A stretch of DNA of 64,000 nt, taken from assembly GCA_015069575.1 (NCBI GenBank), contig SVIH01000002.1:1-64000 (forward strand), given 5' to 3'. How positions within the stretch are numbered: the stretch's first letter is position 1; each line of letters begins with the position of its first letter. The translations under genes were made by a program, and so were the position numbers. Origin of the DNA: Clostridiales bacterium (GTDB lineage Bacteria; Bacillota; Clostridia; Christensenellales; QALW01). The notes under the pieces were generated by a model. The model was not told where the DNA came from, searched no databases, and saw only the letters and a program-made list of their open reading frames with translations. This document shows positions 13,327 to 16,287 of the stretch, piece by piece.

Positions 13327-14481
13327 ATGTCAGTATTGAATCTATTGTCGGAGCAAACTTTTATTGAGAAAATGGACAACCAGAACATTCTCCTTGCAGC
13401 GATTGCGAGTAACGGCGGCGGTGTGAAAATCACATCTTGGAGTGCCGTTCAGCAAGTTGTTCGTTTGGGTCTTGCCTCAAAAGTTTTTGCTATCGGCGAC
13501 CAGTTCATCAGTACAAAAGGCGATGCACAGTTAGTATGGGACATAATCGGTTTCGACCACGATGTTCCGGCTGACAGTCAGTTTACGCATAGTATGACAA
13601 TTCAACTCCACGATTGTTATACTTCTGCTCAATTCGATGCCCGAGAAGCGTTGTATTATGCTACGGAAGACTTACCGGCTGGTACATACAATTTCAGTAT
13701 CGTAACGCAACCTTGGTACACTGCCGATAACGGCAAGACTTTCCAATTTACTTTGGCTAACGATTTAGCAGCCGGTGGACAGATTGTACTCGATATGACC
13801 TACAATCAAGCTCTTGCTGGAAAAAGTGTTAAAGTTTACAGTGGTAGCGATTCGACAGATGTTATCGAAACTGCAACCATTAGTGAGGGTACAAGCGGTA
13901 CTGCTCTTGGAGCAACAGACGGCTCGGTGGAAAACCTCAACCATATTCAACGAGCAATTATGGGGTCTAACCGTTGGACACATTCGGCTGTCAAGCAGTG
14001 GCTCAACAGTGATAAAGCCGCTAACAGTTGGTGGATTGCTAAAAACAATTTCGACAGACCGTCAGCACAGGTTACATCGGCTGGTTTCCTAACCGATATG
14101 GACAGCGAATTTTTGGCTGTAATCGGCGAAGTAAACAAGCGTAATGCTCTTAATACTGTTACGGACGGAGGCGGTTATGAAGACAGCAAGGAGTTGATGT
14201 TCTTGCTCTCTCGTAGCGAACTGTACGGCGGTTTGGAAAATAGCATAAACGAGGGTGAGCCTTATCCTTATTATGCAAATTATTCCGATTTGTCTGCTCC
14301 CGGTACTGCGGTAGATAGCAACCGAATCAAGTACAGAAATGGCTCGGCACAGTATCAATGGACAAGGTCGTGCGACTCTGGTAACGCTAACAATGTTCGT
14401 ATTGTTCGTCCGGCAGGTAACATCTACACCAGCACTGCGAGCAACAGTAACGGAGTCGCCCCAGCTTGTAACATTATCTAA
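13327..14481 (+). CDS. DGR variable target protein (DUF6273-like C-terminal domain)
   Basis: 384 aa; the C-terminal 38 codons contain the VR that matches the TR downstream; SD AAGGAGGT. Confidence 0.93.
   Translation: MSVLNLLSEQTFIEKMDNQNILLAAIASNGGGVKITSWSAVQQVVRLGLASKVFAIGDQFISTKGDAQLVWDIIGFDHDVPADSQFTHSMTIQLHDCYTSAQFDAREALYYATEDLPAGTYNFSIVTQPWYTADNGKTFQFTLANDLAAGGQIVLDMTYNQALAGKSVKVYSGSDSTDVIETATISEGTSGTALGATDGSVENLNHIQRAIMGSNRWTHSAVKQWLNSDKAANSWWIAKNNFDRPSAQVTSAGFLTDMDSEFLAVIGEVNKRNALNTVTDGGGYEDSKELMFLLSRSELYGGLENSINEGEPYPYYANYSDLSAPGTAVDSNRIKYRNGSAQYQWTRSCDSGNANNVRIVRPAGNIYTSTASNSNGVAPACNII
14366..14469 (+). repeat. DGR variable region (VR), 104 bp
   Basis: Aligns without gaps to 14960-15063; 11 mismatches, all opposite A in the TR copy. 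Confidence 0.96.
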
Positions 14482-14491
14482 AATCCAAAAT

Positions 14492-14509
14492 CTGCTCCGA
14501 CAGGAGCAG
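14492..14509 (+). promoter_or_regulatory. DGR hairpin/cruciform downstream of VR
   Basis: Perfect 7-bp inverted repeat CTGCTCC-GACA-GGAGCAG, 22 nt after the VR end, with no T-tract. Confidence 0.8.
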
Positions 14510-14528
14510 TATTAAGACGGAGGGAATT

Positions 14529-14942
14529 ATGTCAGTTGTTAAGTCAAAGCGTGGCGAGGGTCAGTTGGTTGTCATAACCAAAGCCGAAGAACTTGCGGAG
14601 TACAGTGTTAAAATCTGTAAGAACGAGAAACACTTTCCGAAAGCATTTCGCTGGTGCTTTACAATGAAAATAGTCGATGAAGCGGTATCAATATACACTC
14701 TTATTCGAGAAGCAAATACAATATTTGTTACGACCAAAGAGGATTATAGTCTTCGCCGCCGTAAGCAACTTGAGGCATTGTCGTTGACTGATTCCCTTTT
14801 GGGTCTTATTGACCTTGCGAAAAGAGTTTACGGATTAGATTCCGATAGAGTTGAGCATTGGGCTTTACTTGTAAAGAATGTTAGTAAACCTTTGCGTAAA
14901 TGGTTGAAATCCGATGAAGAAAGATACAAGGATATAGGTTGA
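14529..14942 (+). CDS. avd: DGR accessory variability determinant (Avd)
   Basis: 137 aa, predicted helical, located between VR and TR as in canonical DGR cassettes. Confidence 0.85.
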   Translation: MSVVKSKRGEGQLVVITKAEELAEYSVKICKNEKHFPKAFRWCFTMKIVDEAVSIYTLIREANTIFVTTKEDYSLRRRKQLEALSLTDSLLGLIDLAKRVYGLDSDRVEHWALLVKNVSKPLRKWLKSDEERYKDIG

Positions 14943-14959
14943 TAGTTGTAAGCTCGTTC

Positions 14960-15063
14960 GGTCGTGCAACTCTGGTAACGCTAACAATGTTCGTAATGTT
15001 AATCCGACAGGTAACATCAACAACAACAATGCGAACAACAGTAACGGAGTCGCCCCAGATTGT
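14960..15063 (+). repeat. DGR template region (TR), 104 bp
   Basis: Non-coding, A-rich AAY repeats; matches VR with A-only substitutions; 162 nt upstream of the RT start. Confidence 0.96.
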
Positions 15064-15166
15064 GAGATATGCTCGTATAAAGTAGGTCTATTTAGACAGA
15101 AATCAATGCACTCACACAAGGAACTATCACCCTGTCCTATGAGAAATAGGCGAAAAAGGAGCGTTG

Positions 15167-15229
15167 ATGTCGTTTACTCCCAGAAGTAAGTACGGCTACA
15201 AACAACGACTAATATTTTTAATCTTATGA
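15167..15229 (+). CDS. Short 20-aa ORF overlapping the RT start
   Basis: SD AAGGAG, then ATG; peptide MSFTPRSKYGYKQRLIFLIL; its TGA overlaps the RT ATG (ATGA). Confidence 0.5.
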   Translation: MSFTPRSKYGYKQRLIFLIL

Positions 15230-16287
15230 ATATAAAAGTTGATGATTTTACAGTTAGAGATTCTGTTTGCAGTTTCGATAATCTTTATAACGCTATGCTC
15301 AAATGTCGCAGAAATGTAATGTGGAAAGACAGCGTAGCCGGATATGTAAAGAATGGTTTGGTAAATATTCTCGATTTGAAACAATCTCTTATGGACGATA
15401 CTTACAAGATTTCGTCATATTCGAGATTTAAGGTGTATGAGCCAAAAGAACGAGATATTATCAGCACTCGAATTAAAGACCGAGTATTTCAGCGTAGTCT
15501 TTGCGACAATTATTTGTACGAAAATGTAACAAGGTCGTTTATAAACGACAATTCTGCTTGTCAAATAGGCAAGGGTACGCTGTATGCTCGTAATCGTCTG
15601 GAAAGGCATTTACAGAAATATTATCGCAAACACGGTACACAAGGTTGGGTACTTAAATGTGATATTAAAAATTATTTCGGTAGCACACCTCACTCTGTTG
15701 CAAAAGATGCCATACGTCGTTGCGTTTATGACGATTGGGCTGTCGGTGAAGTAAATCGTATAATTGACAGTTTCAATCAAGGTGAAGATGCAACTATCGG
15801 TATGGGACTCGGCTCACAGGTTACACAGTTGATACAACTTGCGGTACTTGACCCTATCGACCACCGTATTAAAGAACAGAAACACATTAAGTATTATGTT
15901 CGATATATGGACGATTTCATTTTAATTCATCACGATAAGGCATATCTCGAAGAATGTCGAAAAGACATTGAAAAGTGGTTATCCGAGTTGGGATTACAGT
16001 TAAGCGAAAAGAAGACTCAGTTATTCCCTGTAACACAACCGATTAGTTTCCTTGGTTTTAGTTTTCGGCTTACAAATACAGGAAAGATTGTGAAGAAAAT
16101 TCGTCCCGAACGAATATCCCACGAAAGACGGAAACTCCGTAAACTTGCTCAAAGAGTAAAGGACGGTAAAATGACCCGAGAAGAAGTTGATAGTTGCTAC
16201 CAAAGTTGGAAAGCACACGCTTCCTATGGAGATACCCACAATTTAATTCTGCGAATGGACAAATTTTACAAAGAATTATGGAGGTAA
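15226..16287 (+). CDS. DGR reverse transcriptase
   Basis: 353 aa; YVRYMDDFILI catalytic motif; IGMGLGSQ (DGR-type SQ instead of QGxxxSP); LGFSFR motif; downstream of TR. Confidence 0.96.
   Translation: MNIKVDDFTVRDSVCSFDNLYNAMLKCRRNVMWKDSVAGYVKNGLVNILDLKQSLMDDTYKISSYSRFKVYEPKERDIISTRIKDRVFQRSLCDNYLYENVTRSFINDNSACQIGKGTLYARNRLERHLQKYYRKHGTQGWVLKCDIKNYFGSTPHSVAKDAIRRCVYDDWAVGEVNRIIDSFNQGEDATIGMGLGSQVTQLIQLAVLDPIDHRIKEQKHIKYYVRYMDDFILIHHDKAYLEECRKDIEKWLSELGLQLSEKKTQLFPVTQPISFLGFSFRLTNTGKIVKKIRPERISHERRKLRKLAQRVKDGKMTREEVDSCYQSWKAHASYGDTHNLILRMDKFYKELWR

Follow-up and report, generated by a model that had tools for sequence, protein, structure and literature searches.

A complete BPP-1-type diversity-generating retroelement, recently active, in the tail region of a Clostridiales prophage

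The 64,000-nucleotide stretch of Clostridiales DNA that was analysed (the window) carries, at positions 13327–16287, a complete and recently active phage diversity-generating retroelement (DGR) of the BPP-1 type, a reading to which we assign a probability of about 97%. Sequence changes in one copy (VR) of a repeat are almost restricted to the adenines of its template, and the best evidence is a near-identical prophage copy in which almost every difference falls within VR. The cassette is a clean new example of a kind of system that is already known, because DUF6273 DGR targets in gut phages have been published.

Cassette anatomy and prophage setting

All parts of a DGR were located on the plus strand of this interval, and their order in the phage tail region (target gene with VR, avd, the template copy TR, and the reverse transcriptase, RT) is identical to that in the BPP-1 annotation. 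The earlier note, made from the sequence alone, had described a complete, co-directional cassette with the BPP-1 gene order, and both descriptions hold. The features of the cassette and its immediate surroundings are as follows.

12620–13312, plus strand: baseplate protein with a BppU_N domain, to which the target probably attaches (PF10651, 2.9e-09; 67% identical to the N-terminus of homologue P0033)
13327–14481, plus strand: DGR target (variable) protein, 384 aa, with a C-terminal DUF6273 domain carrying VR (PF19789, 9.8e-18; PHROG 19280, 1.4e-73)
14366–14474, plus strand: VR, a 109-nt repeat of TR, diversified over about 14366–14450 and followed by an IMH-like invariant segment
14492–14509, plus strand: hairpin CTGCTCC-GACA-GGAGCAG, with a 7-bp stem and a GACA (GRNA) loop, about 17 nt 3′ of VR
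14529–14942, plus strand: avd, accessory variability determinant, 137 aa (PHROG 3206 'Avd protein of DGR', 4.7e-22)
14960–15068, plus strand: TR, non-coding, 3′ of the avd stop codon, with many AAC/AAT (Asn) codons when read in the VR frame
15064–15210, plus strand: structured TR–RT spacer RNA, a sub-threshold relative of Rfam RT-2 (covariation; RF03077, 30.9 bits)
15226–16287, plus strand: DGR reverse transcriptase, 353 aa, with YMDD and GLGSQ (PHROG 1423, 2.4e-97; PDB 8ub7_A; RT tree)
16294–16761, plus strand: CBM_5_12 carbohydrate-binding-module protein, a neighbouring adsorption gene (PF02839, 1e-17)
18571–18647, minus strand: tRNA-Pro(CGG), serving the prophage as its right attachment site (phage-like DNA stops at the tRNA 3′ end)

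The genes upstream of the cassette encode, in order, the portal, the major head protein, head–tail connectors, the major tail protein, the tape measure, tail proteins and the BppU_N protein. Downstream lie the CBM_5_12 protein, a small phage protein of unknown function, the endolysin, the holin, tRNA-Pro and then chromosomal genes, among them a glycyl-radical enzyme with its activase, carbamoyl-phosphate synthase and FGAM synthase. The cassette lies in the tail-tip module of the prophage; the earlier note had placed it in the adsorption part of a prophage tail module. The window runs from base 1 of the contig and starts inside the prophage, of which it covers only the right part; the left end and the integrase fall outside it. 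At the right boundary, similarity to the related locus L020 ends at position 18648, and the congener L124 possesses an intact tRNA-Pro(CGG) with a different 3′ flank. Related phages have tRNA-Pro(CGG) or tRNA-Pro(TGG) as their attachment site (L020, 9346–9421; L006, 8345–8420), with the shared 3′ part of the tRNA retained. In the host part of the window, a ZMP/ZTP riboswitch (RF01750) is present at 46102–46184, near purine-pathway genes. A promoter scan of 12.5–16.4 kb returned 7 sites against 8.8 expected, and thus no signal.

The accessory protein, which in DGRs is Avd or HRDC, was identified here as Avd by its match to PHROG 3206, a family that BPP-1 Avd matches as well; the NCBIfam Avd model NF033474 scores the window protein at 24 bits, under its cut-off of 80. 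Likewise, the RT shares PHROG 1423 with BPP-1 Brt. Its best match among solved structures is 8ub7_A, annotated 'Reverse transcriptase' (1.9e-24; the next match is at 4e-09), which we take to be the Bordetella DGR RT. In a tree of 51 RTs that included BPP-1 Brt, twelve group II intron RTs and ten retron-type RTs, the DGR group containing both the window RT and BPP-1 Brt occupied one side of a branch with SH-aLRT 93, and the group II intron and retron-type RTs formed separate groups. Within the DGR group, to which L095 and L096 were assigned by RT similarity and context without the repeat-pair test, the window RT is nested among RTs from loci with adenine-specific VR/TR pairs of their own. The earlier note had named grouping with group II intron or retron RTs as one outcome that would refute it; the RT falls in the DGR clade instead. 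Both sequence motifs that it had reported in the RT were recovered, as was the contrast it drew between SQ and SP: DGR RTs carry SQ, occasionally SE, and SP is found in the group II RTs examined and in those retron-type RTs for which a motif was found.

Adenine-specific repeats and near-identical prophage copies

VR and TR constitute a direct repeat with 88% identity, the largest in the region and the only strong direct repeat returned by the repeat finder. There are 11 mismatches over the first 104 nucleotides, every one of them at an adenine of the downstream copy, where adenines occupy 35 of the 104 positions (binomial p=6e-6). The downstream copy is therefore TR. Beyond this stretch, VR and TR differ at two G sites, 14470 and 14472, as is typical of an IMH/IMH* boundary. 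The A/C mismatch at 14465 also marks this boundary rather than diversification, since C is fixed there in all seven of the close relatives compared.

The same specificity extends to the lineage. Across the first 99 nucleotides of VR/TR in seven loci, 101 of 236 TR-adenine sites were changed, against 4 of 457 non-adenine sites (Fisher p=2e-49). Variation away from TR adenines, which the earlier note had also listed as an observation that would overturn its reading, is therefore close to absent. TR is identical in L003, L020 and L024, and the VRs of these three loci differ. At the protein level, among 19 homologues, codons with a TR adenine at position 1 or 2 accommodate 6.6 residue types on average, compared to 1.5 for the other VR codons and 1.7 for the rest of the protein. 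A search of the 1.59-Mb assembly for further VRs using the conserved VR/TR core pattern (at most 2 mismatches) returned only the known VR and TR. Elsewhere, the DGR of locus L132 (G057:C21) has two VRs (VR1 at 2153 and VR2 at 2690 in the locus) for its single TR, beside a sub-threshold RT-2 RNA.

Evidence for recent action comes from a near-identical copy of the locus in IMG/VR, where a search for more VR alleles with a VR-specific pattern retrieved only L002 and L003. The contig carrying L003 (IMGVR_UViG_3300024270_000519, L126+L003) spans 18,679 bp, inclusive of the tRNA and the first host gene, and differs from the window at 20 bases. The 109-bp VR accounts for seventeen of these, of which 16 coincide with TR adenines and one is a G>C change; the other three are confined to 10 bases near one contig end (window 1122–1131). 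TR, avd, the spacer and the RT gene are identical between the two, so that VR changes while TR and its surroundings stay constant, as is characteristic of a DGR. Because the twin copies differ nearly solely in VR, the DGR was active after they diverged, and homing postdates nearly all other substitutions; diversification followed the twin split, apparently before any other substitution was fixed. The lone non-adenine twin change, at 14439 (G in TR, C in L003), sits beside an adenine change and could be an RT error or an assembly error.

The target-site hairpin and the TR–RT spacer RNA

In phage DGRs, a recognition element with a GC-rich 7–10 bp stem and a GRNA loop is positioned 4–34 bp after VR (PMC3240598). 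An element of this description is present at 14492–14509, and no other stem on the plus strand of the 64-kb window is 7 bp or longer, contains four or more G/C and carries a GRNA tetraloop. It is kept in six relatives with stems of 6–7 bp, the 6-bp stem being that of L024; in L005 the stem reads CTGTCCC/GGGACAG, with two positions compensated on both arms.

The 147-nt spacer between TR and RT outdoes the RT gene in conservation in each of five relatives (L020, L024, L004, L005 and L006). An alignment of 19 loci revealed four helices, with changes on both sides in 14 of 22 consensus pairs and pairing maintained in 97% of cells. No shuffled alignment reached this level, and controls with slid pairing dropped to 30–51%. 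The Rfam family RT-2 (RF03077) aligns to the window spacer over its full model at 30.9 bits (E 1e-5), below the gathering score of 40. The spacer of the relative L037 passes at 40.9 bits; the window spacer is therefore related to RT-2, yet outside the curated threshold. The first hairpin and the long 3′ helix are shared with RT-2, and the long insertions of RT-2 are absent from the window spacer.

Scanning 293 genomes of the class with RF03077 yielded seven hits, the window and six others. Five of the six others lie between an adenine-specific TR/VR pair and a DGR-like RT; the remaining, sub-threshold hit has neither nearby. The BPP-1 spacer belongs to RF03022 (Phage_DGR) and the spacer of L018 to RT-14, and a covariance model built from the window spacer family did not match the BPP-1 spacer. 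For the RT-2 and RT-14 families, no DGR link was found within the accessible literature. We consider it likely that RT-2 and RT-14 represent lineage-specific forms of a single element, namely the structured TR–RT spacer of DGR template RNA, equivalent to the BPP-1 spacer (RF03022), and that the window spacer is a diverged RT-2 branch missed by the Rfam threshold. The window locus ties RT-2, an Rfam RNA family of unstated role, to DGR template RNAs; if the wider reading is right, spacer covariation could aid both the finding of DGRs and the modelling of their ribonucleoproteins.

Target protein, rival readings and proposed mechanism

The target protein has more than 1,400 homologues, some of which (P0021, P0032, P0033 and P0039) are fusions of a BppU_N domain to the target. 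In the single chain of P0033, the BppU_N part is 67% identical to the window neighbour and the target part 65% identical to the window target. Such fusions are evidence that the BppU_N protein and the target of the window work jointly on the baseplate. Together with gene position, these fusions point to the target as a putative receptor-binding tail-tip protein.

An AlphaFold model of the target (pLDDT 86) resembles other phage DUF6273 proteins. When the full-length model was queried with Foldseek, the sole PDB match below 0.001 was the Thomasclavelia ramosa IgA peptidase, with PvdO weak at E 1.1; a domain-only model, of low confidence (pLDDT 65), matched the same peptidase. No C-type lectin was recovered for either model in these fold searches. 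DUF6273 has been reported to resemble CLec by DALI, and C-lec-like DUF6273 DGR targets have been described (PMC10743442). This peptidase (9qa6) is the only clear solved-structure match of the target model, whose DUF6273 part covers 13924–14478, which suggests the presence of a DUF6273-like domain in this gut enzyme.

Might the cassette be a fossil, a decayed or inactive DGR whose VR was diversified long ago? The window holds only the right part of the prophage, and the VR allele of L002, on a 5,074-bp contig, is exactly the same as that of the window, as is the rest of that contig. Set against this, all open reading frames of the cassette are intact, the spacer has diverged less than the RT gene across five relatives, and, most strongly, the L003 differences over 18.7 kb are concentrated in VR, which together leave a remnant highly improbable. 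That the RT belongs to another retroelement (a group II intron, a retron or a defence DRT), with the repeat coincidental or recombinational, is so improbable as to be negligible. General RT models do match it, but at 95.9 (TIGR04416), 67 (Drt3a) and 36 bits (retron St85), far under the cut-offs of 300, 200 and 235; in the tree, the group II intron and retron-type RTs stand apart from the DGR group, which holds the window RT; and no ncRNA family of introns or retrons was detected, the RNA match at the site being to RT-2, a family located in DGRs elsewhere.

A different question is what the DGR diversifies. The product could be a decoration or mucus-adhesion protein, Hoc-like or tentaclin-like, rather than a receptor-binding protein: the DUF6273 part has a match to PHROG 10993 'Hoc-like head decoration' at 5.8e-24, and a role as flexible, tentacle-like adhesins has been suggested for DUF6273 targets that bear Ig domains (PMC10743442). 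Such a role is unlikely given that the target gene lies directly 3′ of the BppU_N gene, past the tail proteins, and that the same two parts occur as single-protein fusions. We retain the reading of a putative receptor-binding tail-tip protein diversified by a recently active DGR.

Known systems delimit what is distinctive in this one. With the BPP-1 DGR (mtd-VR-avd-TR-brt), the window shares the gene order, the Avd and RT PHROG families, adenine-specific TR-to-VR transfer, a GRNA hairpin after VR, a structured TR–RT spacer and a tRNA attachment site. The two differ in the target, which belongs to the Mtd PHROG family in BPP-1 and is a DUF6273 protein here, and in the spacer family, RF03022 against a sub-threshold RT-2. 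Among gut phages, DUF6273 DGR targets are known as nd4/nd12 and the tentaclins of human-gut phages (PMC10743442) and from the Faecalibacterium prophages Lelie, Roos, Pioen and CP11, with VR at the C-terminus (PMC11792537). The window shares the DUF6273 target domain and the gut-phage setting with these systems, and the C-terminal VR within DUF6273 with the Faecalibacterium targets. It differs from them in having a single target, no tandem Ig tail after DUF6273 and a separate BppU-like docking gene. The nearest named relative of the window is a metagenome-assembled genome from water deer colon (L020).

Taken together, a working model can be proposed. In BPP-1, the folded spacer recruits bRT-Avd and a spacer adenine primes cDNA synthesis (PMC12875486). 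By analogy, the structured 3′ spacer of the TR-containing RNA would hold it to an RT–Avd complex, and TR would be copied into cDNA, presumably primed as in BPP-1, with misincorporation opposite template adenines. With the IMH segment and the downstream GACA hairpin as guides, the cDNA would then take the place of VR at the 3′ end of the target gene; for the hairpin, a BPP-1-like function is assumed. TR would be left unchanged, and the process would therefore be repeatable. This is predicted to bring about massive substitution at about 14 Asn (AAY) codons within DUF6273, in a baseplate protein that docks via its BppU-like neighbour. In view of the genomic context, a scrambled tail-protein tip probably lets the virus try new bacterial receptors and so may alter its host range.

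Two copies of one lysogen locus, with differences almost confined to the programmed region, show cleanly how a DGR has acted in nature rather than in the laboratory, and the DUF6273/BppU baseplate system in gut Clostridia offers a means to study how phages explore receptors.
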